DNA of 64,000 nucleotides from Flavobacteriales bacterium (lineage in GTDB: Bacteria; Bacteroidota; Bacteroidia; Flavobacteriales_C; GCA-002722245). This document shows, piece by piece, positions 38,653-54,555 of the stretch. Positions within the stretch are counted from its first letter, which is position 1. Each line of letters opens with the position of its first letter. The position numbers were made by a program, and so were the translations under genes. The notes under the pieces were generated by a model that saw only the letters and a list, made by a program, of their open reading frames with translations, was not told the origin of the DNA and did not search any database. The stretch is from contig JAHEZM010000004.1 of assembly GCA_023251075.1 (NCBI GenBank), positions 62,001 to 126,000 of the forward strand. The letters run 5' to 3'.

Positions 38653-39759
38653 TTATACTTTATGCTGTAGTTTGAAATCTTTTGGTGAAAGATTAGTTTC
38701 GCCTTTAAATATTCTATTGAAATGTGTTACATGTTTGTATCCGCATTTTACTGCAATTTCCGCAATAGGAAGATGGGTTTGCAGAAGTAAATTTTTGGCC
38801 TCTATGATTCTAACCATGTTGAGATATTGGTTGAAATTTGAGTTTAAATCCTGTTTCAAAATGGTGTTGATCTCTTTAGCATTGATGTTTAATTTGTCTT
38901 CTGCATGGTGAAGATTTAGTTCGGGGTTACTGAATTTCTGACCAATAAATAATTTTATGGCTTCCAATTTCTCATGGTCTATCGGTTCAATATTTGTAGC
39001 TTGAACCGGCACAAATATTTTTTTATTGACAGGGAAAATAAAAACAAAAAACACACTGATATTAAAACAAAGAGTAAATAACAACGCTTTAAAAATTAAT
39101 GGTTTATTGTTGTGGTAAATATTTATTTCGCTGATTTCAATTTCGTCATTTCCACCTCCCTTTAAAATTTTACAACTCCCAATAATGATACTTTTCAGAT
39201 TTTTATATTCAAAAACACGAAGGTCTGTTTGGTTTTTTCCGTGAAAGCGCAGCCACCAATCTGCAGGTTTAAAATTTTGAAGATTCAATTCGTATTCTTC
39301 TTTGTCGCCAATTTGAATTTCATCTTCAAATGCAATTCTTTTGTGTTTTTTTAAGGTATCATTTACAGAGGGCTCTTCAAAGGTGAGCATCACCGGAATT
39401 CTTTTTCCTTTTTTGGCCTTTATCCTAAACATGATTTTGTTCATGTCGTCTAAATCTACAAGGGTTTGTGTACTGTCTTTTTTCGATATTACTACGGCTG
39501 TAAAAGGGTCGGGGCGGCTGGACGTAAGACTATACGATAGGGTAAGTTTATTAGGTGATTTCTGAATAGAATAAACGCTGTGTGATGGGCCTTCTTCGTG
39601 ATAACCTATTATGCGGTAGTCTTCCAGGGAATGAGGAAAGATAGTTTCGTCCTTGAAGGAAATGAATATAAGAACGATTCCGGCAATAAGGAGATTACCA
39701 CTGATTAAAATAGTGGAGAACCACTTTTTATTTATTTGTTTCCAACTCAGCATGACCAT
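38653..39759 (-). CDS. Membrane-anchored AraC-family transcriptional regulator (downstream copy)
   Basis: A 368-residue regulator with two transmembrane helices (about 14-35 and 221-243) enclosing a periplasmic domain of about 185 residues, which contains paired Trp residues (A-D-W-W-L-R-F) suited to sugar stacking. The C-terminal AraC DNA-binding domain (about 265-366) has both helix-turn-helix units: L-P-I-A-E-I-A-V-K-C-G-Y and H-F-N-R-I-F-K-G. The architecture is shared with the gene just upstream (19 nt gap), so the two are tandem paralogs in one operon. A role as a sensor of extracellular glucan products is inferred from its neighbours. Confidence 0.8.
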   Translation of the reverse strand: MVMLSWKQINKKWFSTILISGNLLIAGIVLIFISFKDETIFPHSLEDYRIIGYHEEGPSHSVYSIQKSPNKLTLSYSLTSSRPDPFTAVVISKKDSTQTLVDLDDMNKIMFRIKAKKGKRIPVMLTFEEPSVNDTLKKHKRIAFEDEIQIGDKEEYELNLQNFKPADWWLRFHGKNQTDLRVFEYKNLKSIIIGSCKILKGGGNDEIEISEINIYHNNKPLIFKALLFTLCFNISVFFVFIFPVNKKIFVPVQATNIEPIDHEKLEAIKLFIGQKFSNPELNLHHAEDKLNINAKEINTILKQDLNSNFNQYLNMVRIIEAKNLLLQTHLPIAEIAVKCGYKHVTHFNRIFKGETNLSPKDFKLQHKV

Positions 39760-39778: not shown

Positions 39779-40969
39779 TCAGGTCACCTTTTTGGTGTTT
39801 TTTTCTCTGAATTCTGACGGAGTACAATTTTCATATTGTTTAAATACCCGTGTAAAATGATTGGCAGTACTATATCCCACTGAGTATAAAATCTCTTTAA
39901 TGCTAATGTCGGTTTCACTCAGCATTCGTTTGGCTTCCTGAAGTCGCATATAATTAAGGTATTCACGAAAAGCAAGTTTATATTTTTCCATAATGAAACT
40001 GGAAATTATTTTTTCATTTTTTCCAATCATTTTGGAAGTGAGTTGTAGTGACAATTCGGGATTGGTGTAATTATTAGCAAGATATTTTATCAGTTCTTTC
40101 TCCCATGTATTATCGTTTTTGTTCAGGTTATTATCTTCCACTGGCTTAAACTGAATAACAATAGGTTCCTGTTGTTTGGATTGCTGTATTTTTATCCACA
40201 TGAAGATAACTATGCATAGTAAATAGAGGTTGAGGAAGATGATAAAAAATAAGCTGTATGATTTTCCCAGCGTAATCTTTTTAACGGTAACTACAATGTT
40301 CTTTGAAGCATCAATTACAGAACCATGCGCCAGCGTAATTTTTTGTGTTGATGTCCAATCGGGTGAAGGAAGTTCCTTTCCGGGTGTGCTCCAATCCCTT
40401 TCCCACCAGGTAGCCGTAGCAAAGTCGTTAATAGTACAACTTAAAATATTTACTCCGTTTTTTAGGTTGAAAATTTTCGAGTTGTAGCGATATGAATCAG
40501 GGTTAGAATTGTGGGTGATGCCTTTTTCAAAAGTTCTGATATTAGCGTCAATACTTGCTAAATTAGAGGTTTCTATTTCAAAGGAGAGTTTATTGTAATC
40601 GGTAATGAAATTAAATGATTTTTCTTTTGTTGCGGTAAAATCAATACCTGCATATTTTATATCGGTATTGCCTATTTTATAATTGATGCTTACGGTATTG
40701 TCTTTTATTGCAAAGGAATTGATCATAGTGTTTCCTTTATTCTCTTTACTATCGGAAAACGAAGTTACATTAATGTTTTTGCCAGGGAATACAGAATAAT
40801 CCTCCTGGTACTCAAATAAAAAGAAGATCAGAGCTCCCAGTATAGCAGGAAGCACTAGTATAAGTATATTTTTTGGTTGTAAAAGCAGCTTGATTACCAT
40901 AGGCCAATTGACTCGAAGGTAATTTAAAGTCTTTACATTTTCAAGCAGTTTGGTAAACATTTTAAGCAT
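39779..40969 (-). CDS. Membrane-anchored AraC-family transcriptional regulator (upstream copy)
   Basis: A 396-residue regulator with the same plan as its neighbour: transmembrane helices at about 33-53 and 237-258, a periplasmic domain of about 180 residues (with T-A-T-W-W-E-R-D-W), and a C-terminal AraC domain (about 290-392; S-I-K-E-I-L-Y-S-V-G-Y, H-F-T-R-V-F-K-Q). Gene order makes it the first in the two-gene operon. Its start lies 378 nt from the divergent exported-protein gene, and the space between holds two pairs of half-sites, one facing each gene. Autoregulation and control of the glucan operons are inferred. An alternative start is the Met at codon 4. Confidence 0.8.
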   Translation of the reverse strand: MLKMFTKLLENVKTLNYLRVNWPMVIKLLLQPKNILILVLPAILGALIFFLFEYQEDYSVFPGKNINVTSFSDSKENKGNTMINSFAIKDNTVSINYKIGNTDIKYAGIDFTATKEKSFNFITDYNKLSFEIETSNLASIDANIRTFEKGITHNSNPDSYRYNSKIFNLKNGVNILSCTINDFATATWWERDWSTPGKELPSPDWTSTQKITLAHGSVIDASKNIVVTVKKITLGKSYSLFFIIFLNLYLLCIVIFMWIKIQQSKQQEPIVIQFKPVEDNNLNKNDNTWEKELIKYLANNYTNPELSLQLTSKMIGKNEKIISSFIMEKYKLAFREYLNYMRLQEAKRMLSETDISIKEILYSVGYSTANHFTRVFKQYENCTPSEFREKNTKKVT

Positions 40970-41174: not shown

Positions 41175-41204
41175 TGCATTTTATACAAAACAGTGTGCAT
41201 TTTA
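41175..41204 (+). promoter_or_regulatory. Candidate AraC half-site pair upstream of the glucan locus
   Basis: TGCATTTTA occurs at 41175-41183 and again at 41196-41204, 21 bp start to start, with an A-rich spacer (TACAAAACAGTG). The proximal copy ends 143 nt before the ATG at 41348. A near-identical pair precedes the GH5 gene (52653-52683). Confidence 0.6.
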
Positions 41205-41347: not shown

Positions 41348-42322
41348 ATGAAAAAAACCTTAACTAATTTATTATTCCTTTTAACTGGATTAAATTTAAG
41401 CGCGCAGTGCATATCATCTTATAACTCTACAGGGTTTTATGATGATTTTACTTCAGTCACCGATAAAGACAGCTTGTATTTTTGGGATGAAGCCACACTT
41501 ACAGGTGATGCCAACCCTAATTTTCAGGCTGTAAAAGTCAGAAGTGGTGGTGTGATTAACTACACTGTTAGTCAGGGAAAAGGAGAATATGTTCCTTTTG
41601 GAGTTTCTTTTGGAGATAACAATGGCACTCCAATTACTATTGATTTGTCGGGAGATAAAACCTTTTCGGTAAAATTCACCAACAATAGTGATTCTACTAT
41701 TATAATAAGAATGACCATTCAGGATATCAATGGAAATGAATTGGATACTTATTCAGATGCGGTAACCGACGGGCAGTTCTCCAATGCGTGGAAATATACC
41801 ATCGCTACCGGAAGTTTGGCCCCCAATGCAAGTACTACTTTCAGTGGTACTTATGCAGGTGCGGTAAAAGCTAATTATACTAACAGTACTTTCGTTTCTA
41901 CATTCGATTTTACAAAAGTGAAGGGTGTATATATTACTGTTTTGAATAACAATAAGGATGCGGCAGATGGATACAAACCTCTTAAACTGAGTTCAGTTGA
42001 TATTGCAATGGATGCTATTAAAGTAGGTGCTTGCGTGTCGGCGGGAAGTAATTCAGTTGTTGAAGAACAACATTTATCATTTTCTCTTTTTCCCAATCCA
42101 GTGAGTGAAGGTGAACTGAATGTAAGTGTGAATGCTGACCAGGCATCTTCCTCTTTACTTCGTGTGTTTGATATGCAAGGGCGTTTGCTGAAAGAGCAAA
42201 ATTGTACTGTGATGAATGGCGCTTTTACTTTGGATGTATCCATGTTGGAGTCAGGACTCTATTCACTTAGTTTGATTTCCAACACAGAAAGCCATAATAA
42301 TCTATTGTTTAGCATAAAATAA
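41348..42322 (+). CDS. T9SS-exported protein with jelly-roll-like domain
   Basis: A 324-residue exported protein (signal peptide ends near L-N-L-S-A-Q). Residues about 25-235 form one beta-sandwich-like domain that opens with Y-D-D-F-T-S and carries G-E-Y-V-P-F-G and I-R-M-T-I-Q-D-I-N-G; similar blocks occur twice in the lipoprotein at 47399-48544 (A-Y-V-P-F-G in its first copy). The last 75 residues are a type IX sorting domain (S-L-F-P-N-P-V-S-E-G). No catalytic motif is seen, so a carbohydrate-binding or scaffolding role at the cell surface is likely. It is the first gene after the operator region and precedes the six-gene glucan operon by 115 nt, with a large hairpin between. Confidence 0.75.
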   Translation: MKKTLTNLLFLLTGLNLSAQCISSYNSTGFYDDFTSVTDKDSLYFWDEATLTGDANPNFQAVKVRSGGVINYTVSQGKGEYVPFGVSFGDNNGTPITIDLSGDKTFSVKFTNNSDSTIIIRMTIQDINGNELDTYSDAVTDGQFSNAWKYTIATGSLAPNASTTFSGTYAGAVKANYTNSTFVSTFDFTKVKGVYITVLNNNKDAADGYKPLKLSSVDIAMDAIKVGACVSAGSNSVVEEQHLSFSLFPNPVSEGELNVSVNADQASSSLLRVFDMQGRLLKEQNCTVMNGAFTLDVSMLESGLYSLSLISNTESHNNLLFSIK

Positions 42323-42337
42323 TAAAAATACACTCCC

Positions 42338-42425
42338 GGAGCCTTTTCAATGTTGTAGTGACGACCCGACCCCAATCAAGTAGTATACACGCTTCTCTTC
42401 AGTGAAGTAAACATGAAAAGGCTCC
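42338..42425 (+). terminator. Large stem-loop between the exported-protein gene and the glucan operon
   Basis: GGAGCCTTTTCA (42338-42349) pairs with TGAAAAGGCTCC (42414-42425); with a one-base bulge the stem extends by TGTT/AACA (42351-42354 with 42410-42413). The loop is about 55 nt and can form a small inner hairpin. A T-rich tract (TTTCCTTTT) follows directly, and the next start codon is 12 nt beyond the stem. It may act as a partial terminator, an mRNA processing site, or a block on translation of the next gene. Confidence 0.65.
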
Positions 42426-42437
42426 TTTCCTTTTAAA

Positions 42438-44504
42438 ATGAATAAAAAATTAGCCGGCATATCATTTTTATTTTGTGTTCTGTTTTTCTCCAATCTTAAG
42501 GGAAGCGATTCTCTCGTTGACAAGAAATATAAGCAGTTTAGCAATCTTGTTCTTTCAGGTTATGTTCGGCCCTATGTGCAATACAGAAGCATGAATAATT
42601 ATTATCCGGGCATGCCCAATGCTGCTTTGCAAAACATTGCTTTAAATGGTTATGAAATAAGTGGCGGGCAGGCTGCCGGATACCAGGAACCATTTTTATT
42701 ACTCAGGTTGGAAGCCAAGCCCAGTTCAAAAACCAGTTTCAAAATAGAATATGCTTTTGATGACCAGTTGGATGGTATCATCAAGTCAAATAAAAACGAA
42801 CCTGTAGATGGTATCATTACACCTTACTCAAAGAGAGTGAGTATTTACAGAATATTTCAGTTTCAGGCCCAAACCATCACTACAAAAGGAACTTTTAAAA
42901 TAATTGCCGGTGGCGGAGTGAACTGGTACAGATTGAGTCCGCTTACTTTATGGAATTATGAATATCGCGATGATCTATTTGAACGCTATCCGTGGGAACC
43001 CGAAGGTAAGGCCATGTCGCGTTACAACAGTTTTTACGAAGTGCAAAATGTGGCGCGTGATGCAAGGTGGGGCAATACAGGAACACAAGGTTTTATTTTG
43101 GAAGCCAATTCACTTCCATTAGGATTCAATGCGGTGATACTTTATGGAAAAACCGACAATAGTGGTGGTTTTCAATCTTATGTAAATGGCATTCCAAAAA
43201 ATATGCTGTCGGGAAGAATTTCAAAAACTTTGGGTGCACAACAAATAGCATTGAATTATTTCAGCCAGTTTGGATATTATGACGGCACCGCTCTATATAA
43301 GATAGATCAGAATATCGCCAGTGCAGAATGGAAAAGAAATTTTAAAGTCTTCAAAGTTTTTTTGGAAGCCGGTGCAGGCCGATACGCTGAAAATGGAACA
43401 CTCACTTCCGCCAACTATTACCATTATTTTGGAAGAAGTACAAGTTCCAGCGATACTGCGGCATCTTTCATCAATCCATGGGCTCCTTGTGCCAACTTAC
43501 AGATCGATATAGATAAAAATATTTTTCCGCTCAGTGCTCAGTTTTTTTACATCAATAAAAGTGTAGTAAATGTTAATAGCCAGGTACTCAACACCAGTAA
43601 TAGCCATGCTATGGGAACTCCTTCCAATGTGAATTCTCCTTACGATGTTACCACCCTGCGCGGAGCTGTGACCGATGTTGGACAGATGGCCAATAACCGT
43701 ATGGGTACCTCTCTCAAATATGAAAATACTTTTAAGAAATTGAAGCTGATGATGGGCACAGGAGTATCACAGGAAATTGAAAATCTGTACAAAACTTATA
43801 CTTCATCTTCTTACAACATGCCGAATAATTTTGCTTCCTTTTTAGGATATGCGCAATCGTTTAACAGCATTACTTTTCAGCATCGAGCTAATCAATTTAC
43901 ACGTTCAAGATTTGGTTATTATATGAACAATGTTGGTCCGTACAATAAGGTGATCAACATGTACAGAAGGTCTTTTGAAACGGTTGCCATCACGGATACT
44001 AATGTAAACTATCGCAAAGGATACAACTCAATCGATTTTAATTGGAAGTATAAATTTCTGATCGGAAAAAGAGATCTTATTATTTCTAATTATTACAATT
44101 ATTCTTCTGTGCAGGATCATTTGTCGCCGTTTCCTGTATTCAGTAATAAAGCATTTTTGCGTTATTTCTACACCGAGTTAAACACTTTCTTTTCTTTGCA
44201 TTCTAAGTTGACCCTGATTGCATTTGTAAGTTTTGAAAGAGTAATGGGAAATATGCGCACAGCCTTGGCTGATGCAGATGGTAAGCTAATCACAGATCCT
44301 ACCTCAGGCATTGCAGTTTACAACGCGAACGGAAAACCGATAGATCAATTTGGTCATGGTTACGGATTTGGTGTTGATTATGATTTTGCTCCAAGAGCAG
44401 GGATCTATTTGAGAAGCAGATGGTTTGATCATCGGGATAAAAATTTTATCTCCGATCAATTCAGCGGAATAGAATCTTCACTTGAATTAAAAATTTTCTT
44501 TTGA
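42438..44504 (+). CDS. Predicted outer-membrane beta-barrel protein, first gene of glucan operon
   Basis: A 688-residue exported protein (signal peptide about 1-22) made almost wholly of amphipathic beta-strands rich in Tyr, Phe, Asn and Gly, ending in E-S-S-L-E-L-K-I-F-F, the aromatic C-terminus usual for outer-membrane barrels. It opens with V-L-S-G-Y-V-R-P-Y-V-Q-Y. It has no plug domain or TonB box, so it is not a TonB receptor. The following barrel gene starts 1 nt after its stop. By gene order it resembles the outer-membrane proteins of the Cytophaga hutchinsonii CHU_1276-1280 cellulose locus (from memory). A role in glucan binding or uptake is inferred. Confidence 0.7.
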   Translation: MNKKLAGISFLFCVLFFSNLKGSDSLVDKKYKQFSNLVLSGYVRPYVQYRSMNNYYPGMPNAALQNIALNGYEISGGQAAGYQEPFLLLRLEAKPSSKTSFKIEYAFDDQLDGIIKSNKNEPVDGIITPYSKRVSIYRIFQFQAQTITTKGTFKIIAGGGVNWYRLSPLTLWNYEYRDDLFERYPWEPEGKAMSRYNSFYEVQNVARDARWGNTGTQGFILEANSLPLGFNAVILYGKTDNSGGFQSYVNGIPKNMLSGRISKTLGAQQIALNYFSQFGYYDGTALYKIDQNIASAEWKRNFKVFKVFLEAGAGRYAENGTLTSANYYHYFGRSTSSSDTAASFINPWAPCANLQIDIDKNIFPLSAQFFYINKSVVNVNSQVLNTSNSHAMGTPSNVNSPYDVTTLRGAVTDVGQMANNRMGTSLKYENTFKKLKLMMGTGVSQEIENLYKTYTSSSYNMPNNFASFLGYAQSFNSITFQHRANQFTRSRFGYYMNNVGPYNKVINMYRRSFETVAITDTNVNYRKGYNSIDFNWKYKFLIGKRDLIISNYYNYSSVQDHLSPFPVFSNKAFLRYFYTELNTFFSLHSKLTLIAFVSFERVMGNMRTALADADGKLITDPTSGIAVYNANGKPIDQFGHGYGFGVDYDFAPRAGIYLRSRWFDHRDKNFISDQFSGIESSLELKIFF

Positions 44505-44505
44505 T

Positions 44506-46242
44506 ATGAATGCAGTAAAAATCACTTTGTTGTTTTTTGTTTTGATAGCTATTCGGCTACCGGCACAAACATTATATTTTAATGGATTGGGTCGGGTTTT
44601 GGTAACCAACGATGCTATCGATGGCAACATCAATGTGAACGATAAACAAAGTATTCGCAAAGCTACTGGAGGCTATACTTTATTTGATCTTGGCATTAAT
44701 GTTCAGCCTTCCGAATTTCTAAGAGCTTCTGTTACGCTGCGTGCAAAAAATGCTTTTGGCGGATTTTACGGCGATGGAAGTGTGATCACTTTCCGACAAT
44801 TTAAATTGGATGGGATCATCTCCAAAAAAGTAAAATATGAAGTAGGTGATATCGATTTAATGTTAACGCCTTATACTCTATTTAATAATTACGAAAGCTA
44901 TATCGATCACGAAGCAGAATTGTTTAATCAACGTAGAAAAATAGTGTATTATGAAAACTTCAATTTCGGAAATAAATGGAGACTGCAAGGAGCGAATGTA
45001 ACAGCACAGTTGGTGAGCGATCGCTACATTGAAAAAATCGGACTCCAGTTTTTTGCCACCCGTATTGCGCGAGCAAATTATTTTAACAATCAGGTACCCG
45101 ACCGACTTTTGTTGGGTTCTAGAATTGATGTTCTGCAAAGCAAATATTTTCAGTACGGATTAAATTATGCGCAGTTGAATGATGTACACGGAACTTCTCC
45201 TTCGCCTTCAGTAGTGCTCAACAATAAAGTGCTAACAGGCGATTGGAAATTGAGTTTGAGAAAAGGGGATTTCGTATGGAGTATTTATGGTGAAGCAGGT
45301 GGATCAACTTATACTTATTCTGCTTCCGATTCTTCCCGATCTAAACAAGATTATTTTTACGATGCTGGCATCAGTATGCTTTACAAACCTTTAAAATTAA
45401 AGGTTTTCGCAGCAGTGAAAAATGTAGGCAAAGATTTTAATTCTCCTTCTGCGCAAACCCGCAGAGTTTTCGATCTGGCTACCAACAGCTTGTTTCCTTC
45501 TTATACTTTTTCTGGCGCAACAACATGGAGAACACCTACTTTGTTCGATCGCTTTACCGATGAAAAATCGATGAGGAATACTACCATCATGGATACCTTG
45601 GTGCAATTCAATCCGTTGTATAATAATGTTCAGCCTTATGGAAGTGCTACACCTAACAGACAAGGAATAACAGCCGGAATCTCTTTAGGGACAGATGAAA
45701 AAATTGTACATGCCGATTTGAATATGGCATTTTTACAAGAGGTAACGGAAGAGATCAACAATGGTCGCCGACAGTTTTTATTGTTACAAGGTGGAGCCAA
45801 TGTGAATTTAAATAAATGGTGGAAAAGAGATCAGAAATGTGTTTTCACTATGGGATTTCAATATGAAAAAACAAAAAGAGATTTGCAGCCCAATGTAATC
45901 TCACTGCAATCTGGTTTCGTTGATGTAGGCTTGAGTTACGAGATTCTGAAATCTTTTGATATTCTTTTTGCTTATAAAACTTTCTCAGGGAAAGGAAATG
46001 AATTTTATTCAAAGCGAGATGCATTTAATGTTCTGGTGACCAATCCGGTGCAAGTGCTCAACTTCGATTTAACGCAACAAATTTTTGGTGGTGGATTGCG
46101 CTTGTGTCACAGCAAAAATTCTTTTACTACGCTACAATATTATTTCATAAAGGTAAATGATAGCTTACTGAAAGACAGCAATGGTAATGCTTTGGAGTAC
46201 AATGTTAAACAGTTGTTTGTTCAATACAACTTAATATTTTAA
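44506..46242 (+). CDS. Predicted outer-membrane beta-barrel protein, second gene of glucan operon
   Basis: A 578-residue exported protein (signal peptide, cleavage near R-L-P-A-Q). Like the preceding gene product it consists of amphipathic strands with aromatic girdles and ends in Q-L-F-V-Q-Y-N-L-I-F, an outer-membrane barrel terminus. It opens with L-Y-F-N-G-L-G-R-V-L-V-T-N-D. It has no TonB plug and no enzyme motif. It is 1 nt after the first barrel gene and 2 nt before a lipoprotein gene, so the two barrels and two lipoproteins are probably made together and may form one outer-membrane complex. Function is inferred from context only. Confidence 0.7.
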   Translation: MNAVKITLLFFVLIAIRLPAQTLYFNGLGRVLVTNDAIDGNINVNDKQSIRKATGGYTLFDLGINVQPSEFLRASVTLRAKNAFGGFYGDGSVITFRQFKLDGIISKKVKYEVGDIDLMLTPYTLFNNYESYIDHEAELFNQRRKIVYYENFNFGNKWRLQGANVTAQLVSDRYIEKIGLQFFATRIARANYFNNQVPDRLLLGSRIDVLQSKYFQYGLNYAQLNDVHGTSPSPSVVLNNKVLTGDWKLSLRKGDFVWSIYGEAGGSTYTYSASDSSRSKQDYFYDAGISMLYKPLKLKVFAAVKNVGKDFNSPSAQTRRVFDLATNSLFPSYTFSGATTWRTPTLFDRFTDEKSMRNTTIMDTLVQFNPLYNNVQPYGSATPNRQGITAGISLGTDEKIVHADLNMAFLQEVTEEINNGRRQFLLLQGGANVNLNKWWKRDQKCVFTMGFQYEKTKRDLQPNVISLQSGFVDVGLSYEILKSFDILFAYKTFSGKGNEFYSKRDAFNVLVTNPVQVLNFDLTQQIFGGGLRLCHSKNSFTTLQYYFIKVNDSLLKDSNGNALEYNVKQLFVQYNLIF

Positions 46243-46244
46243 GT

Positions 46245-47399
46245 ATGCACTTGAAGAAAACTTTATATCTCCTTTTCTTTCTTTCTCTTCTTCTTTCATG
46301 TGAGAGGAATACAGAAGCTATTGGTCCGGAATACAAAATTCCTTCGGCCGATTTTAAAATGCTCAATGCTTTTTCTGCTGCTCAAAATAATATTGATTTT
46401 TCTATTTCATCAGAACAAATTTTTACTGCCTCTTTTTCTGAAAACGTAAGTTGGTTTGTAAATCTAAAAGGATCTAAATCGGGAGCGAAAAAAAGTATCA
46501 GTGGTTTTTCAAAAGAGTTGAATATGGCCAATTGCAAATGGAATGGCAACCACGACGATCTGTATTTTTTCAGGTCGGGTGAAACAGTAGTAGCTACTTT
46601 AACTTTCCTCGGTTCAACACTAAGTTTTACAGATACTTTTAATCTCGTTACGGCTCGCAGCTGGAATATTCCCGGAAAGATAATTCCTGTATTGAATTTT
46701 GAATCGGGTGCTTCTACTTTCGATTACCAATTTTACGATGGTCCGTCAGATAAATATCCTACTTATAAAGTAACCTATTCTGTGAAAAACGGTGTGCAGA
46801 GTGATATGTTTTCCGGTCTCAACAACAGCATACAAAGTGTATTGAAAAATGTGAGTGGTGATACTATACAAGGATTTCCTAGAGGCTCTATAGAGGGAGA
46901 GAAGCTGTACCGTTTTGCAGGAAAAGACGGCGTGTATAACGGCGACGGATACAGTGATTATTTCATTGGTGGAGCCGGTATGGGCAAGGTGGGATATTAT
47001 GCTTTAAGCTCAGATCCCGATCAGGTGTATTTCAATATTTATGTATTTGGTACTGGCGATCCCAACTCTAAACTGGTTATTAATTTCAACGAAGATGATG
47101 ATGGAAATGGAAATGCTGATGCGGGCAACCAAAGCGAAAATTATATTTTATATGAAGATGAATATGCTTATGGAATTCAGGTTTCCTGGGAAGGATGGAA
47201 ATTGATTTCGGTAAAATATGATGATCTCGAATTGTCGGCCGACGGCGCAAAAGCAAAATACGGCAATAAGAAAAAAGAGCCGCACAAAATTGCTAAAATG
47301 GGTTTTGTATTGTTGAGTACAAAAAAGGGTGATCAGGCCAATGTGAATTTTGATTTTCCTGTTTTTACTATCGCGCAAATATTTAATCCTGCTCAATAA
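46245..47399 (+). CDS. Surface lipoprotein with jelly-roll-like domain
   Basis: A 384-residue lipoprotein (lipobox S-L-L-L-S-C, Cys19). The N-terminal 140 residues look like an Ig-like or PKD-like domain; the C-terminal half (about 145-380) reads as a galactose-binding-like jelly roll with exposed aromatics (Y-G-I-Q-V-S-W-E-G-W-K-L-I) and an acidic loop (N-E-D-D-D-G-N-G-N) suited to calcium. Such modules often bind beta-glucans (CBM11- or CBM4-like); the family is not certain. It shares one base with the next gene (TAATG). Third gene of the operon. Confidence 0.7.
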   Translation: MHLKKTLYLLFFLSLLLSCERNTEAIGPEYKIPSADFKMLNAFSAAQNNIDFSISSEQIFTASFSENVSWFVNLKGSKSGAKKSISGFSKELNMANCKWNGNHDDLYFFRSGETVVATLTFLGSTLSFTDTFNLVTARSWNIPGKIIPVLNFESGASTFDYQFYDGPSDKYPTYKVTYSVKNGVQSDMFSGLNNSIQSVLKNVSGDTIQGFPRGSIEGEKLYRFAGKDGVYNGDGYSDYFIGGAGMGKVGYYALSSDPDQVYFNIYVFGTGDPNSKLVINFNEDDDGNGNADAGNQSENYILYEDEYAYGIQVSWEGWKLISVKYDDLELSADGAKAKYGNKKKEPHKIAKMGFVLLSTKKGDQANVNFDFPVFTIAQIFNPAQ

Positions 47400-48544
47400 T
47401 GCAAAGATTTCTTTCATATATCATTTTGTTTTTTCTATTGTCGGGTTTATCGGCCTGTCTGCATTTTGCAGAGCCTGTACTCGATCATAATGCACAATTG
47501 GCAGAATACCAGGAAGCCGAAAAAGGAGTAAATGCACTGCTGATGAACAAAGGAGTAATCGATCAATTCTCTGACGAAATTTATAGTTGGTGGGGTGCCA
47601 ATGGAATTACTTTAAGCAGGAAGCAGGATACTTTCAAAGTGGTGATCAACAATGTAGGATCGGCTTATGTTCCTTTTGGTAGAGAAATTACTTCAATTGA
47701 TTTTACCACGAGTCATCTTTTGCGTGTACGCATGCGTTGCGAAGGGAAATCATCGCCTGTGGTTCGTCTCGATTTGAAAGACAATATGGGAAGAACAACC
47801 AATGCTATGGCGGTACAAAATCGTGTGACGGCAAATAAATCTTATCAGGATTTTTATTACTATTTCAGAGATAAATATGTGCAGGCGTGGCCTGATAAGC
47901 AGATAGTAGATTCTACATTGATCTCTTCTGTGATGTTTTTTGTGAATCCGGGAATGACCGACTGGACAGGCGTTTTATACATCGATGAAATTGAGGCACT
48001 GCCTCTAGATAGTCTGCCGAAAAAAGAATCAAAGTCAAGTTTGGTCGTAGATGATTTTAGTGATGAACCAAGCGCATGGTGGGTTGGAAGCAGTAAAATT
48101 GCATTGGAAAAAGAAGCAGACATCGACATCTTGAAAATTACTTCAGATGGTGCGGGTGCTAATTACGAAACTTTCGGAAGAGCTTTTGAAAGAGTGGATT
48201 GTAATAAGTCGCCTATCATTCGAATTCGCGCCAGAGCAGAAAAAAAAGCAGGAGATAAAAATCCTAAAATAAGAATAGCACTTAAAGATAATAATGGCTA
48301 TACCAGCAATGAATTTGATATCGTGCAAGAGATCGACAGCAGCATGAATTATAAAAATTATTTTTTCGATTGCAGAGGTAAATTTTCACAAACTTATCCT
48401 GATCAGCATAGTGTTAATGCAAATGCTATTGAAGGTCTTGTGATTTTTATCAATAGTGGCGGACCGGCATTCTACGGCAAAATATATATAGAAGAAATTG
48501 AAGTGATCGATGAGAAAAAAATGAATGAATTACTAAAGCAATGA
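47399..48544 (+). CDS. Surface lipoprotein with two tandem jelly-roll-like domains
   Basis: A 381-residue lipoprotein (lipobox S-G-L-S-A-C, Cys20). It contains two copies of one domain, about 55-200 and 220-375: D-Q-F-S-D-E-I-Y-S-W-W-G against D-D-F-S-D-E-P-S-A-W-W-V, Y-V-P-F-G-R-E against Y-E-T-F-G-R-A, and I-D-E-I-E-A against I-E-E-I-E-V at the ends. The paired Trp residues fit sugar stacking. The first copy's Y-V-P-F-G block recurs in the exported protein at 41348-42322. It overlaps both neighbours (1 nt and 4 nt), so it is tightly coupled to the GH9 gene. A glucan-binding role is inferred. Confidence 0.75.
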   Translation: MQRFLSYIILFFLLSGLSACLHFAEPVLDHNAQLAEYQEAEKGVNALLMNKGVIDQFSDEIYSWWGANGITLSRKQDTFKVVINNVGSAYVPFGREITSIDFTTSHLLRVRMRCEGKSSPVVRLDLKDNMGRTTNAMAVQNRVTANKSYQDFYYYFRDKYVQAWPDKQIVDSTLISSVMFFVNPGMTDWTGVLYIDEIEALPLDSLPKKESKSSLVVDDFSDEPSAWWVGSSKIALEKEADIDILKITSDGAGANYETFGRAFERVDCNKSPIIRIRARAEKKAGDKNPKIRIALKDNNGYTSNEFDIVQEIDSSMNYKNYFFDCRGKFSQTYPDQHSVNANAIEGLVIFINSGGPAFYGKIYIEEIEVIDEKKMNELLKQ

Positions 48545-50319
48545 CTAAAAAATTAATATTCTATTTTTGGAAATGGATGATCTTATTCATTTTGTTTTTT
48601 CTCTTCCAATCTATCCTTTTTGCACAGGATAAAATAAGACTCAACCAGTTGGGATATTATTGTGGTGCACCTAAAATAGCAGTGGTGTTATCGCCACAAG
48701 CAAATGTTTTTTTTGTGGTGGATGATGCAAGTCACGACACTATTTATCATGCTAATTTATTGAAGACAGAATTTTGGGAATACTCTGGTGATTCGGCAAG
48801 GAAAGCCAATTTTTCAAAAGTAAACCGAGAAGGTAAATTTCATCTTTTTGTACCGGGAATAGGCACTTCCTATGCTTTCGAAATTACACACAATACTTTT
48901 CTTCCGGCAGCGAAATCTTCTTTGAAAATGTATTATTTACAAAGAGCTTCAATAGATATTCAAGAGCAATATGCCGGAAAATTTGCAAGAAAAAAAGGTC
49001 ATCCCGATGACCACGTGATGGTACATCCCTCCGCGGAAAGTGCGTCACGTGGCGCTGGAACTATCTTTAAAAGTGAAGGAGGATGGTATGATGCGGGAGA
49101 TTACAATAAATACATTGTGAACTCAGGTATCAGCACTTATACTTTAATAATGACTTACGAACATCTCGCTCCTTATTTTGATACACTGAATACCAATATT
49201 CCTGAAAGCAAAAACAAGATTCCCGACATCCTGGATGAGGTGTTGTATAACCTGCGCTGGATGCTGAGTATGCAAGATACCGATGGTGGTGTTTATCATA
49301 AACTCACCAACAGCAATTTCGATGGAAACCTCATGCCTGCCGATGCGCAAGAGCCCAGATATGTGGTGATGAAAACCACTGCCGCATCTTTAGATTTTGC
49401 TGCGGTGTGTGCGGTAGCACATCGTATTTTTAAAAAATACAATCAGCAAATGCCTGGCTTTTCCGACAGCTGTTTACAAGCTTCTTTAAATGCATGGAGC
49501 TGGGCGAAAAAAAATCCCAATGTGAAATATTTACAAAATAAAATGAATGCAGAATTCAATCCCGATATCGTGACAGGTGCTTATGACGATAATAATTTAC
49601 AGGATGAATTTCAATGGGCTGCTACCGAATTATTTATTGCCACATCAAAATACAGTTACCTCGTAGAAATGAATCTGGAAGCTTCATTGAGCAAAAATTT
49701 TAATATCCCCAACTGGCAAAATGTAGGTTCGCTGGGCTATTACAGCTTGATGACGAAAAGAGAAGAACTGGAATTCATCGAAGCTGAAAAGATAGAATTG
49801 ATCAAAGCAAAGATTTTAAAATGTGCCGATGAATTGGTGAAAGGTTATAAGAAATCTGCATTTGCTGTTCCTATAGGAACCTGGTCGGGAGATTTTTGCT
49901 GGGGAAGTAATGCGCATGCCGGCAATGAAGGAATAGTATTGTTGCAAGCATATTTGATCAGCGGAGATGTTGAATATATGGAAGCTGCATTGGCAGTGAT
50001 GGATTATTTTTTAGGAAGAAATGGAACCTCTTATTCTTTCTTAACAGGCTTCGGCGACAAGCAAGTGATGCATTCGCATCACCGTCCGTCGGAAGCAGAT
50101 GGAATCACTGAACCTCTGCCGGGATACCTTGTAGGTGGACCGAATCCGGGAATGGAAGATGCATCGAATTGCGGAGGAAAATATGTGTGCAAACTTCCTG
50201 CATCTGCCTATATCGATGATGTCTGCAGTTATGCCTCCAATGAAGTTGCCATCAACTGGAATGCTCCTTTTGTATACCTCTCTTTTTCTATTCACCAACA
50301 CTATAAAAACTCAAAATGA
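48541..50319 (+). CDS. GH9 endoglucanase with N-terminal Ig-like domain
   Basis: A 592-residue exported glycoside hydrolase (signal peptide about 1-29, no lipobox, no T9SS domain). Residues 30-118 form the CelD-type Ig-like domain (I-R-L-N-Q-L-G-Y) that precedes many GH9 catalytic domains. The (alpha/alpha)6 barrel has G-G-W-Y-D-A-G-D-Y-N-K (Asp184 and Asp187), H-S-H-H-R-P-S, and the acid Glu568 in Y-A-S-N-E-V-A-I-N-W-N. It inverts and cleaves beta-1,4-glucan. Without a sorting signal it should act in the periplasm or be held by the operon's outer-membrane proteins. It overlaps the lipoprotein and the GH3 genes by 4 nt each. Confidence 0.92.
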   Translation: MTKKLIFYFWKWMILFILFFLFQSILFAQDKIRLNQLGYYCGAPKIAVVLSPQANVFFVVDDASHDTIYHANLLKTEFWEYSGDSARKANFSKVNREGKFHLFVPGIGTSYAFEITHNTFLPAAKSSLKMYYLQRASIDIQEQYAGKFARKKGHPDDHVMVHPSAESASRGAGTIFKSEGGWYDAGDYNKYIVNSGISTYTLIMTYEHLAPYFDTLNTNIPESKNKIPDILDEVLYNLRWMLSMQDTDGGVYHKLTNSNFDGNLMPADAQEPRYVVMKTTAASLDFAAVCAVAHRIFKKYNQQMPGFSDSCLQASLNAWSWAKKNPNVKYLQNKMNAEFNPDIVTGAYDDNNLQDEFQWAATELFIATSKYSYLVEMNLEASLSKNFNIPNWQNVGSLGYYSLMTKREELEFIEAEKIELIKAKILKCADELVKGYKKSAFAVPIGTWSGDFCWGSNAHAGNEGIVLLQAYLISGDVEYMEAALAVMDYFLGRNGTSYSFLTGFGDKQVMHSHHRPSEADGITEPLPGYLVGGPNPGMEDASNCGGKYVCKLPASAYIDDVCSYASNEVAINWNAPFVYLSFSIHQHYKNSK

Positions 50320-52538
50320 AAAATATTTTTGCAAGCTTATTTTTATTGTTCCTGATCTCCTGTACAAATACAGAAAAGAATGCCAATACTTTTCCTGCTG
50401 AAGTAAAAGAATTATTGGACAATATGTCGGTAGAAGAAAAGGCCGGACAACTCACCATTTTAAATTTAACCGTCTTGGTAAAGACCGATAGCGTTACAGG
50501 AAAAATTGTTTTGGATTCTGCAAAGCTGAAAGATTTCATGGTGAATCACATGGTAGGAAATATTTTGAATACGCACTCTGTTGCGTTGAGCGACAGCAAT
50601 TGGAGAAGCATCATTGTTACGCTGCAAAAATATGCGCAGCAAACACCGAATAAAATTCCGGTGTTGTATGGAATAGATGCTATTCACGGTGCAACGTATA
50701 CTTCCAATTCAGTTTTATTTCCTCACAACATGGCTTTGGGTGCATCACGAAATCCGGAACTGGCACGCTTGGCAGCCAAGGCTACCGCAGCCGATGTGAG
50801 AGCATCAGGTATTCGCTGGAATTATGCACCCGTGTTGGATGTAGCGCGTCAGCCTTTATGGGCAAGGTTTGGCGAAAGCTACGGAGAAGATCCTTTTTTA
50901 GTAGGCGAAATGGGTAAAGCTGCAGTGAAAGGATATGAAGAAGATGGATTAAATAAAACGACAGGAGTAGCATCGTGTATGAAACATTATCTGGCTTACT
51001 CTGCTCCTACTACAGGCAAAGACAGATCGCCATCACTTATTCCTGAAATCACTTTACGTGAATATTATTTACCTCCGTTTGAAGCTTGTGTAAAAGCAGG
51101 TTCTTCATCGATCATGATCAACTCTTCAGAAATAAATGGCGTACCTGTTCATGGCAGCAGTTATTTGTTGAAAGATGTATTGCGTGGAGAACTGGGTTTT
51201 GAAGGATTGGTGGTTTCCGATTGGATGGATGTAATGCGTTTGCACGATCGACATCATGTAGCAAAAGATTACAGAGAAGCTACCAAAATGGCCATTAATG
51301 CTGGTATTGACATGAGTATGGTACCTTACGATACACGCTTTACCGATCAGGTGATCGACCTGGTAAAAGCTGGTGAAATTTCTATGGAGCGTTTGGACGA
51401 AGCCTGTGGAAGAGTACTCACCTTGAAATATAAATTAGGCTTGTTTAGTGATGGTGGATTGCCTGAAGAAACAGCGATCAAAAATTTCAATCCCGAAAAA
51501 AATAAAGAACTTGCGATCACTGCTGCAAGAGAATGTTTAACTCTCCTGAAAAATAAAAATGATGTGCTTCCTCTTAAGAAAGGATGCAAAATTTTATTGG
51601 CTGGAAAAGGAGCAGAGAATATTTCCATGATGAATGGTTGCTGGTCGTATTGCTGGCAGGGTAACGACAATAATTTATATCCCAATTATTATACTTCTTT
51701 GTCTCAGGAATTAAAAAAGATAGCAGGTGAAAATTCTGTAATTCTTGAAAAAGGAAATCAAATAAAATCCACTTCTGAAGATGTGATTGTTTTGTGTTTG
51801 GGTGAAGATGCTTATGCTGAAACTCCTGGTTCCATAAGAGAACTGGATTTAGATGAAGATCAGCAACAGTTAGCCATGAGTGCTTATGCCACAGGTAAGC
51901 CGGTAATCTTGGTGCTAATGGAAGGAAGGCCGCGCATCGTACGTAAAATAGAACCTGAAGCATCAGGAATATTGATGACTTATTGGAGTGGATTTGGAGC
52001 TCCAAAAGCCATTGCCGAATGTTTGTTCGGAGAAATGAATCCTTCAGGTAAATTGCCTTTTTCTTATCCGAAATATTCGGGCTATTATTTGCCTTACGAT
52101 TATAAGTACAGCGATTTGGATGAAGAACTGCAAATTGGTGTTTTCACCAAAACAGGTTATGATGTTCAATGGCCTTTTGGTTTTGGTTTGAGTTATACTC
52201 ATTTTACTTATTCGGTGATTGAAGCAGATACGGTATTGTTTGGTGATGCCATGCTGAATATTTCTGTTATGGTGAAAAACACAGGAAAGGTGGATGGTGC
52301 AGAAGCAGTGGAGTTATATACCCGTGATCATTATGCGAGCGTTGCACCCAGTATGCGTCGTTTAAGAGCTTTCAATAAAGTGTTCCTGAAAAAAGGAGAA
52401 TCGAAAAAAATCACTTTTCAATTGAGCGCGAAAGATCTGAGTTTTGTAAATACAGACATGAAAAGAGTAACTGAAGATGGGAAGTTTGATATCATCATTG
52501 CCGATCAGGTGAAAGAGTTTATTTATTACGCGAAATAA
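50316..52538 (+). CDS. GH3 beta-glucosidase, lipoprotein
   Basis: A 740-residue GH3 enzyme. The signal peptide ends in L-F-L-I-S-C (Cys16), so it is a lipoprotein. The N-terminal barrel contains Y-G-I-D-A-I-H-G and the nucleophile Asp302 in V-V-S-D-W-M-D-V; K-H-Y sits at K223-H224. The second alpha/beta domain (about 370-580) and a C-terminal fibronectin-III-like domain (about 640-735) follow. It is typical of BglX-type beta-glucosidases and should release glucose from the cello-oligomers made by the GH9 enzyme, at the inner face of the outer membrane or on the surface. It is the last gene of the six-gene operon. Confidence 0.92.
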   Translation: MKNIFASLFLLFLISCTNTEKNANTFPAEVKELLDNMSVEEKAGQLTILNLTVLVKTDSVTGKIVLDSAKLKDFMVNHMVGNILNTHSVALSDSNWRSIIVTLQKYAQQTPNKIPVLYGIDAIHGATYTSNSVLFPHNMALGASRNPELARLAAKATAADVRASGIRWNYAPVLDVARQPLWARFGESYGEDPFLVGEMGKAAVKGYEEDGLNKTTGVASCMKHYLAYSAPTTGKDRSPSLIPEITLREYYLPPFEACVKAGSSSIMINSSEINGVPVHGSSYLLKDVLRGELGFEGLVVSDWMDVMRLHDRHHVAKDYREATKMAINAGIDMSMVPYDTRFTDQVIDLVKAGEISMERLDEACGRVLTLKYKLGLFSDGGLPEETAIKNFNPEKNKELAITAARECLTLLKNKNDVLPLKKGCKILLAGKGAENISMMNGCWSYCWQGNDNNLYPNYYTSLSQELKKIAGENSVILEKGNQIKSTSEDVIVLCLGEDAYAETPGSIRELDLDEDQQQLAMSAYATGKPVILVLMEGRPRIVRKIEPEASGILMTYWSGFGAPKAIAECLFGEMNPSGKLPFSYPKYSGYYLPYDYKYSDLDEELQIGVFTKTGYDVQWPFGFGLSYTHFTYSVIEADTVLFGDAMLNISVMVKNTGKVDGAEAVELYTRDHYASVAPSMRRLRAFNKVFLKKGESKKITFQLSAKDLSFVNTDMKRVTEDGKFDIIIADQVKEFIYYAK

Positions 52539-52547
52539 AAGTACTTC

Positions 52548-52578
52548 CGTTTGGGCGACCCTTGCGGTCGCCCAAACG
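52548..52578. repeat. 13-bp perfect hairpin downstream of the glucan operon
   Basis: CGTTTGGGCGACC (52548-52560) pairs exactly with 52566-52578 around a 5-nt loop. It starts 9 nt after the GH3 stop. No T-run follows, so it may be a REP-like element or mRNA 3'-end protector rather than a standard terminator. Beyond it, 52579-52652 shows nothing else of note. Confidence 0.65.
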
Positions 52579-52652
52579 AACACACAAACCCTTCTTCGCC
52601 TTTCATTTTAGTTCAACCACTCTGCATCTTGCGCTTCCCCTTTTTTTAAACA

Positions 52653-52683
52653 CACATTTTAGTAAAAAGCATAGTGCATTTTA
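52653..52683 (+). promoter_or_regulatory. Candidate AraC half-site pair upstream of the GH5 operon
   Basis: CACATTTTA (52653-52661) and TGCATTTTA (52675-52683) start 22 bp apart, with an A-rich spacer as at 41175-41204. The proximal copy ends 144 nt before the ATG at 52828, against 143 nt at the 41348 gene. Confidence 0.55.
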
Positions 52684-52827
52684 GTGTAAAATGTACTTTT
52701 CATTTCCCGCAATTTATTGATAATCAGATAAGGTGATTAATGTACATTTAAAAGATTCAAATGAGTCATCTAAACTGTCATTTGAACTTAACTTTCCCTA
52801 TCTCAAAAAACTAAAACCTATTCCGTT

Positions 52828-54555
52828 ATGAAAAAACTACTAAGTGTGTTTGCTTGCCTACTTATTGCAACTCATTTTCTTTTGGCTCAAAGTCCGGTAG
52901 CTCTCCATGGAGCATTAAAAGTTTCGGGTTCAAGTATTCTAGATCAAAATAATTCTCCGGTGAGTTTTGCGGGGATGAGTCTTTTTTGGAGCAACACTTC
53001 CTGGGGAGGTGAAAAATTTTATAACACTTCTGCTATCAATTCTGTGGTGACCGATTGGAAAGCAACTATTGTTCGCGCCGCTATGGGAGTAGATGAAAGT
53101 GGTGGTTATATTTCTGATGCTGCCAATAATAAAACGAGAGTTAAAACTGTAGTGGATGCAGCTATCGCCAATGGTATTTATGTGATCATCGATTTCCACA
53201 GTCATTACGCACACAACTATAAACAAACAGCCATCGATTTTTTTAAGGAAATGGCAACCACTTATGGTTCAAATCCCAACGTGATCTATGAAATATACAA
53301 TGAGCCTTTGAGCGTATCATGGTCGAGTGTGATCAAGCCTTATGCTTTAGATGTGATCAAAGAAATTCGTGCGATCGACCCCGATAATTTAATTATAGTA
53401 GGTACTCCAAATTGGTCGCAAGATGTGGATGTTGCCTCTACCGATCCAATTACTTCTTATTCAAACATAGCTTATACTTTACACTTTTATGCAGGTACGC
53501 ACGGACAGTCGTACCGAGATAAAGCTATCACGGCCATGAACAATGGAATTGCTTTGATGGTAACGGAATGGGGAACCGTAAACGCTGATGGAAATGGATC
53601 GGTGAATAGCAGTGAAACTGACAATTGGGTGACCTTCATGTGTCAGTATAATTTAAGCAATTGCAATTGGTCGTTGAACGATAAATCGGAAGGAGCATCG
53701 GCGCTGAATTCCGGAGTATCTACCACTGGTCCGTGGAGTAGCGGTAATCTCACATCTTCTGGAACAAAAATAAAATCTATTCTTTCAACATGGTGTGGAG
53801 GAGTGTATGGAGGAGTAGGAACAACGCAAACAGCTTACAACAATACCTCGCAATTGATTCCAGGTAAAGTGGAGATGGAAAAATATGATGTAGGCGGACA
53901 AAGCGTTTCTTATTACGAAACAACAAATACCAATGAGGCAGGTTCTACCTATAGAGGAAGTGATCCTGTGGATATTGGAGCCACTGGGTCGGGTGGATAT
54001 TCTTTGGGGTATGTGGCAGTAGGTGAGTGGTTGGAATATACAGTAAATGTGAGCAGCACCGATAGCTATACCGTAACGTTTAATTCGGCAGCTGCAAGTG
54101 GATATGGTGGAACATTTAATTTATATGTGGACGGAGTAAAAATCTTGGGTCCGGTGAGCACAGGAACCACTGCATCATGGTCGACTTATCAAGTAAAAAC
54201 AGCAGGAACGGTAAATCTTACCAGTGGTACGCATCTCCTGAAATTAGAAATTGCCACTGCGGCTTTCAATCTTGATTATGTTGAATTTACACTCAACTCA
54301 CCTACAAACATTGACGGTAATGGATTGCTAATTCAACCTAAATTATTTCCTAATCCATCTTCGCAAAATATTTATGTAGAAGCACCAGCAAATTCTTTAC
54401 TTACTATTTATGATGTGGATGGAAAAGAACTCATCAACCAAAAACTTTTAGCTGAACTCAACTGTTTGGAAACTCAAAATTTTAGCAGTGGAGTTTATTT
54501 CGTTACAATTCGTTCGAACGATATCTGTAATACTATAAAGTTTATCAAGAATTAA
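52828..54555 (+). CDS. GH5 endoglucanase with CBM6 and T9SS sorting domain
   Basis: A 575-residue exported cellulase (signal peptide 1-20, ending L-L-A-Q). The GH5 barrel (about 27-325) has acid/base Glu159 in Y-E-I-Y-N-E-P and nucleophile Glu247 in V-T-E-W-G-T, and resembles subfamily 2. A CBM6 jelly roll follows (about 345-490; V-E-M-E-K-Y-D, G-E-W-L-E-Y-T-V, L-D-Y-V-E-F). The last 75 residues are a type IX type A sorting domain (L-F-P-N-P-S-S-Q). It should cut beta-1,4-glucan at or outside the cell surface. It heads an operon with a CHU_C protein (4 nt gap) and a GH8 protein. Confidence 0.93.
   Translation: MKKLLSVFACLLIATHFLLAQSPVALHGALKVSGSSILDQNNSPVSFAGMSLFWSNTSWGGEKFYNTSAINSVVTDWKATIVRAAMGVDESGGYISDAANNKTRVKTVVDAAIANGIYVIIDFHSHYAHNYKQTAIDFFKEMATTYGSNPNVIYEIYNEPLSVSWSSVIKPYALDVIKEIRAIDPDNLIIVGTPNWSQDVDVASTDPITSYSNIAYTLHFYAGTHGQSYRDKAITAMNNGIALMVTEWGTVNADGNGSVNSSETDNWVTFMCQYNLSNCNWSLNDKSEGASALNSGVSTTGPWSSGNLTSSGTKIKSILSTWCGGVYGGVGTTQTAYNNTSQLIPGKVEMEKYDVGGQSVSYYETTNTNEAGSTYRGSDPVDIGATGSGGYSLGYVAVGEWLEYTVNVSSTDSYTVTFNSAAASGYGGTFNLYVDGVKILGPVSTGTTASWSTYQVKTAGTVNLTSGTHLLKLEIATAAFNLDYVEFTLNSPTNIDGNGLLIQPKLFPNPSSQNIYVEAPANSLLTIYDVDGKELINQKLLAELNCLETQNFSSGVYFVTIRSNDICNTIKFIKN

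Follow-up and report, generated by a model that had tools for sequence, protein, structure and literature searches.

The stretch of DNA analysed here, called the window throughout, covers 64,000 nucleotides (nt) of contig JAHEZM010000004.1 from a Flavobacteriales bacterium, a freshwater-type member of Bacteroidota without SusD, and contains a compact glucan operon. Six co-directional open reading frames (ORFs) on the forward strand (42438-52538) encode two outer-membrane barrels (B1 and B2), two lipoproteins (LP1 and LP2), a glycoside hydrolase (GH) of family 9 and a GH3 enzyme (Table 1). A preliminary description of this DNA had reported six coupled genes with gaps of 1-2 nt or overlaps, and the junctions of +1, +2, -1, -4 and -4 nt, in order, bear this out. 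However, the interval it gave (41348-52538) is correct for the operon but also takes in a first gene that is not one of the six. This gene (41348-42322) encodes a protein, T9cbm, that resembles a carbohydrate-binding module (CBM) and carries a tail of the type IX secretion system (T9SS).

The endoglucanase and beta-glucosidase read earlier from the letters were both recovered by Pfam, the GH9 with an E-value of 2e-85 together with a CelD_N domain and the GH3 with 1.5e-69. The GH9 contains the DAGD and NE motifs and a Sec-type signal, lacks a T9SS tail, and is the only GH9 of the window genome (single genomic match). For B1, B2, LP1 and LP2, no Pfam family at the curated cut-off and no NCBIfam family was found. 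AlphaFold predicted a barrel both for B1 (mean predicted local distance difference test score, pLDDT, of 82.7; alignment of 47 sequences) and for B2 (91.5; 45 sequences), the latter with about 22 strands by DSSP, and the C-terminal phenylalanine of the barrels further supports this fold. The Plug domain was found in neither protein by Pfam, nor at the N-terminus of either model. The first strands start at residues 36 in B1 and 22 in B2, soon past the signal peptide, indicating that neither carries an N-terminal TonB plug.

Foldseek searches of B1 and B2 against the PDB returned the barrels AlgE, chitoporin, OccK, MOMP, maltoporin, OprC and ZnuD, the TM-scores lying at roughly 0.3-0.5; chitoporin, AlgE, OccK porins and maltoporin are among the nearest folds of B2, all with low TM-scores. 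Two long loops of B2, residues 118-157 (with a helix) and 308-384, hold many invariant residues, including A316-Q317, and the segment PYG-ATPNR (377-385) is also among the invariant residues. Counting strands in the predicted model, we place both loops on the external side, where by analogy with loop L3 of porins we infer that they narrow the pore.

LP2 consists of two copies of one CBM-like domain. LP1 has no sequence similarity to any solved structure, and searches of PDB sequences with the barrel and LP1 profiles gave no convincing match. LP1 was also considered as a relative of LP2 and rejected, as profile comparison yielded no match. The carbohydrate-binding-like character given earlier to both lipoproteins fits LP2.

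The absence of SusCD, claimed for the locus, extends to the whole window genome (rated 100% complete, 45 contigs): neither SusD family (PF07980, PF14322) had a match, with a positive Bacteroides control, and no SusC/SusD pair was found elsewhere by these profiles. PF07980 is absent from all nine genomes of the family tested, each of which carries B1 and LP1 homologues. The window genome encodes 16 TonB-plug proteins, so that TonB receptors as a class have not been lost along with SusD.

Table 1. Position and annotation of the operon genes and flanking features.
Feature	Coordinates	Strand	Remarks
AraC-type regulator 2	38653..39759	-	HTH_18 E 4e-18 (Pfam), C-terminal AraC helix-turn-helix (HTH); hydropathy peaks 14-35, 221-244
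AraC-type regulator 1	39779..40969	-	HTH_18 E 6e-18 (Pfam); hydropathy peaks 33-54, 237-261
T9cbm, T9SS-secreted CBM-like protein	41348..42322	+	Por_Secre_tail E 3e-11
B1, outer-membrane barrel, CHU_1276 orthologue	42438..44504	+	688 residues
B2, outer-membrane barrel, CHU_1277 orthologue	44506..46242	+	578 residues
LP1, lipoprotein, invariant core, CHU_1278 orthologue	46245..47399	+	384 residues; lipobox-like LLSC
LP2, lipoprotein, two CBM-like domains, CHU_1279 orthologue	47399..48544	+	381 residues; lipobox-like LSAC
GH9 endoglucanase with CelD_N immunoglobulin-like domain, CHU_1280 orthologue	48541..50319	+	592 residues
GH3 beta-glucosidase-type lipoprotein	50316..52538	+	740 residues; lipobox-like LISC
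Hairpin directly 3' of the operon	52546..52580		perfect 15-pair stem, 9 G-C pairs
GH5-CBM6 endoglucanase, T9SS tail	52828..54555	+	GH5 E 3e-64, CBM_6 E 9e-20, Por_Secre_tail (Pfam)

Relation to the loci of Cytophaga and Sporocytophaga

An atypical polysaccharide utilization locus (PUL), chu_1276-chu_1280, has been described in Cytophaga hutchinsonii and also in C. aurantiaca and Sporocytophaga myxococcoides (PMC12016534). The resemblance to it that the preliminary description proposed was confirmed by BLASTP: the C. hutchinsonii genes follow the same order of barrel, barrel, lipoprotein, CBM-like lipoprotein and GH9, and their products share 42, 44, 29, 41 and 54% identity, respectively, with those of the window. 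The comparison genome, with the locus at 1.49 Mb, was taken as C. hutchinsonii because its 375-residue LP2 homologue contains the published residues W89, F92, F180, Y253, F256 and F343. Residues Y256, F259 and F350 of the window LP2 correspond to the cellulose-binding Y253, F256 and F343 of CHU_1279. Judged by sequence, this PUL type gains a new member in the window locus.

The GH3 of the window is 53-54% identical to the GH3 of Sporocytophaga-type loci, from genomes taken as Sporocytophaga. These loci have the order B1-B2-LP1-LP2-GH3, whereas Cytophaga-type loci have the GH9 without a GH3, and the window holds both enzymes. In a Sporocytophaga-type locus (L203: 8316-10250), LP2 is about 645 residues long, and another copy of the CBM-like domain apparently lies in its C-terminal extension.

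Previous work has shown that genes 1276, 1277, 1279 and 1280 of C. hutchinsonii are either required for cellulose use or important for it. CHU_1279 binds cellulose, and growth on Avicel requires it, even with its binding residues mutated (PMC12016534). The requirement thus appears to be physical more than based on binding, by analogy with SusD. Mutants of 1276 and 1279 grow poorly on 0.1% glucose (PMC12016534). A passage of PMC5553014 that cites Ji 2014 assigns CHU_1277 a role in cellooligosaccharide assimilation and lists it among cellulose-bound outer-membrane proteins.

A B1-B2-LP1 core beside different enzymes

When 84,980 named species genomes were scanned with the B2 alignment, 180 relatives were obtained, and the best 80 of the 180 were analysed. 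These 80 come from Saprospiraceae, Cryomorpha, Rhodothermia, rumen Bacteroidales, metagenome-assembled genomes (MAGs) of Cytophagaceae and others; C. hutchinsonii is not one of them. Among 116 B2 genes with context, B1 lies directly upstream and a lipoprotein directly downstream in 109; the other seven are five genes at contig ends and two apparently broken or fused ORFs. Some loci are counted twice in the 116, and the distinct triples number 91. In an even sample of the class, B2 was found in 22 of 197 genomes and 14 of 118 genera, with eight of the 22 genomes from the window's family. Searches with B1 and LP1 revealed further copies of the module in the window genome (contig C44, 18-23 kb; contig C42, 72-78 kb), and there are up to five copies per genome in sister species and up to eight in more distant genomes. 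Two records titled Bifidobacterium breve (L096) and Chryseobacterium gleum (L098) carry the Bacteroidota module, and these species names look wrong.

The neighbouring genes were typed by Pfam on cluster representatives, and the labels "chitin" and "beta-1,3-glucan" are deduced from the enzyme families. Cellulose-type loci, the group of the window, have LP2 with GH9 and/or GH3. A large group of beta-1,3-glucan-type loci contains GH16, GH3, a CBM30-like lipoprotein, and a propeller-LuxR regulator or an SSF symporter. Chitin-type loci contain GH18, a nagB-type glucosamine-6-phosphate deaminase, a deaminase-PIG-L fusion and sometimes an SSF symporter. GH97 (L044, L049), GH65 (L122) or GH94 (L152) genes neighbour the module in a few loci, suggesting that other glucans are perhaps served too.

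The copy on C44 is of the chitin type (L041: 6921-18731) and comprises an SSF symporter, a GH18, B1, B2, LP1, a second lipoprotein and nagB; it also has a protein like the nagB-PIG-L fusion and adjoins gapA/pfkA-like genes. Chitin modules of this type are similarly placed in both genera of the window's family, and in the second genus a GH18-OmpA fusion lies directly upstream of B1 (L063: 6159-7922). The window itself encodes a T9SS-tailed GH18 chitinase (26432-28696, forward strand), which fits the chitin-type module elsewhere in its genome.

The 14 cellulose-type loci group together as one clade in both barrel trees (support 0.94 for B2 and 1.0 for B1); besides the window locus it contains those of its three sister species and the Cytophaga-type, Sporocytophaga-type and related loci, with the paralogues of the window genome outside. 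The window's family shares this clade with Cytophaga and Sporocytophaga and the chitin clade with Cytophagaceae MAGs, and it is joined by Saprospiraceae and others in the beta-1,3-glucan group. The three enzyme labels require two changes on each tree, the minimum possible (67 labelled loci). Such sorting would match the behaviour of substrate-specific transporters, although the argument would lose weight if operons travel as whole units. Loci without susCD have been mentioned generically (PMC9122927, PMC10108472), and no description of the general B1-B2-LP1 module was found in the open-licence PMC literature. The core is an apparently undescribed glycan module that extends far beyond the Cytophaga-type locus and, by its neighbouring genes, is not specific to cellulose.

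Proposed import mechanism and its alternatives

We propose that the operon represents the cellulose type of a SusCD-independent module and forms a plug-less, SusCD-like oligosaccharide importer, here for cello-oligosaccharides, with a probability of about 0.6. The proposal is based on the gene order, the orthology, the conserved aromatic residues, the plug-less fold predictions, the absence of SusD and the substrate-sorted phylogeny; we infer transport, the division of labour, the cell location of GH9 and GH3, and regulation. T9SS-secreted surface enzymes, such as the GH5-CBM6 at 52828 and others, would cut beta-1,4-glucan outside the cell. LP2, CBM-like and cellulose-binding by orthology, and LP1 would hold chains or oligosaccharides at the cell surface, and B1 and B2 would pass cello-oligosaccharides across the outer membrane without a TonB plug. 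The Sec-exported GH9 and the GH3 lipoprotein would then trim the oligosaccharides to glucose at or below the outer membrane. B1-B2-LP1 might thus be an exchangeable import core, with LP1 obligatory, in which a second lipoprotein (LP2 or CBM30-like) and the enzymes would determine the substrate. The process would be powered by downstream hydrolysis and by symport across the inner membrane; SSF symporters adjoin several chitin- and beta-1,3-glucan-type loci. The need for CHU_1279 despite mutated binding residues, together with the low-glucose defects of the 1276 and 1279 mutants, fits a transport complex.

Several points weigh against this proposal. The fold matches of both barrels are generic. 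A wide barrel without energy from TonB would depend on downstream hydrolysis and symport alone. The lower cell-associated beta-glucosidase on loss of CHU_1277 could reflect a role in display instead. The clean sorting of labels may partly reflect the descent of whole operons travelling as units. Finally, mirror-tree analysis gave r 0.91 for B1-B2 over 91 loci, but when the two pairs are compared over one common set of loci, B1-B2 (r 0.94) correlates no better than B2-GH3 (r 0.96), so that the similarity of the trees gives no specific support for contact, and co-evolution as proof of a B1-B2 complex was discarded.

The same importer might serve soluble or amorphous beta-1,4-glucan, mixed-linkage glucan or xyloglucan and not crystalline cellulose, a possibility that we hold only tentatively; it is compatible with the importer model and was weighed separately. 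The genome has a single GH9, compared with seven in C. hutchinsonii (PMC6247017), and the closest GH9 of solved structure is the xyloglucanase BoGH9A (E 4e-146), so that the substrate may be a beta-1,4-glucan in amorphous or soluble form, or a related glucan. However, the GH9 is 54% identical to and syntenic with CHU_1280, LP2 keeps the aromatic residues that bind Avicel in CHU_1279, the GH5-CBM6 gene adjoins the operon, and the operon has no xylosidase or fucosidase.

A different proposal follows the suggestion, made in the preliminary description, of an outer-membrane complex working directly on cellulose: barrels, lipoproteins and GH9 would act as a single unit gripping and processing the insoluble substrate, with the barrels as scaffolds or chain-threading channels. 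This appears unlikely. The recovery of CHU_1277 with cellulose, in the cited passage of PMC5553014, and the binding of cellulose by CHU_1279 (PMC12016534) agree with it, as do the degradation of cellulose by C. hutchinsonii only through contact and the tight translational coupling of the operon genes. However, delta-chu_1279 cells retain adhesion to cellulose and lose only about 25% of their endoglucanase activity (PMC12016534), the GH9 has no T9SS tail, and CHU_1280 is located in the periplasm as well as outside (PMC6247017). In addition, enzymes of the chitin and beta-1,3-glucan types are found beside the same barrels and LP1, so that a general oligosaccharide importer is favoured over a machine working on cellulose. 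Export is still less probable: B1 and B2 might bring lipoproteins or glucosidases to the surface for presentation rather than take up sugar, since cell-associated beta-glucosidase is reduced on loss of CHU_1276 or CHU_1277 (PMC5553014), but T9SS sorting tails throughout the window indicate that export is already served, the low-glucose defects of the 1276 and 1279 mutants point to uptake (PMC12016534), and a substrate-sorted barrel phylogeny is not expected of an exporter.

The interpretation given in the preliminary description is partly supported: the orthology and synteny with the C. hutchinsonii locus, the lack of SusCD and the presence of the GH3 hold, while a single complex acting directly on cellulose is a hypothesis. 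How sugars cross the outer membrane without SusCD in contact-dependent cellulose degraders of Bacteroidota has until now been a question linked to Cytophaga and Sporocytophaga. With the locus present in another lineage that lacks SusD, and the core lying beside chitin and beta-1,3-glucan enzymes, what seemed peculiar to Cytophaga becomes a general hypothesis of transport that can be tested. We consider the generality of the B1-B2-LP1 module the interesting part; the module is probably a general alternative to the classic SusCD importer. In its widest form the odds lean modestly, and a little less than for the operon itself, towards a phylum-wide second class of PUL: a plug-less, SusCD-independent importer, mainly for beta-linked glycans, with separate cellulose, chitin and beta-1,3-glucan lineages and up to five or more copies per genome, which would fully replace SusCD in the window's family. 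Schemes that recognize PULs by their susCD genes would miss this class of glycan loci, as neither Pfam nor NCBIfam has a model that the core families match at the curated cut-off.

Flanking features and comparison with known systems

The T9cbm gene ends 115 nt upstream of B1, and the N-terminal part of its product resembles the CBM-like domain of LP2 (hhalign probability 93, E 3e-7). T9cbm homologues lie upstream of B1 in the sister-species cellulose loci L048 and L052. A stem-loop lies between T9cbm and B1 (42338-42425, forward strand; region fold -28 kcal/mol, z -3.85 against shuffles) and may keep the expression of the two units apart. The hairpin after the GH3 stop codon is a probable terminator. 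The GH5-CBM6 gene beyond it is a separate unit and likely encodes a surface partner of the operon products. Four nt past this gene starts a gene for a 1428-residue PKD/CHU_C T9SS surface protein (54560-58846, forward strand), a relative of which adjoins the barrel module in L042.

The two AraC-type regulators, divergent from the operon, each have two transmembrane helices with an intervening segment, and their proximity makes them possible regulators of the operon. Regulator 1 has six matches in the window genome, one adjoining the module on C42 (L042: 445-1548); at L048 and L052, the two sister-species cellulose loci with upstream DNA in the comparison, the pair is not adjacent. A CBM-like sensor region was rejected, as hhalign against LP2 and T9cbm gave no match. 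The Bacteroidetes-type promoter TTTG-N-TANNTTTG occurs no more often than by chance and is not found upstream of the operon. The sequence TGCATTTTA occurs only four times in the window, three of them at two sites: two copies exactly 21 bp apart upstream of the operon (41175-41204) and one inside the palindrome TGCATTTTAGTGTAAAATGTA upstream of the GH5 gene (52675-52695). The spacing resembles that of AraC sites; as a conserved operator the repeats were rejected, as they are not conserved upstream of other module loci.

Similar to substrate-specific porins (chitoporin, maltoporin, OccK) and AlgE, which are among the best Foldseek matches of B1 or B2, the two barrels are plug-less. However, those barrels have fewer strands than the 22 or so predicted for B2, show no sequence relation to B1 or B2, and do not occur as paired genes with a lipoprotein of their own. 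Similar to a canonical SusCD PUL, the module combines an outer-membrane barrel, surface glycan-binding lipoproteins and glycoside hydrolases in one operon, with substrate-specific paralogues within one genome; it differs in lacking a SusD family protein, a TonB plug and SusC, and in having two barrels instead of one. With the C. hutchinsonii-type PUL, the window locus shares the gene order, the identities, the LP2 aromatic residues, a single clade in both barrel trees and the lack of a SusC/SusD pair in the locus. In contrast to that PUL, it belongs to a different, uncultured lineage, holds a Cytophaga-like GH9 and a Sporocytophaga-type GH3 together in one operon, has a T9SS-tailed CBM-like protein upstream, and lies near an AraC pair where an extracytoplasmic function (ECF) sigma factor is reported for C. 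hutchinsonii; C. hutchinsonii also has SusC/SusD homologues, whereas the window genome has no SusD.

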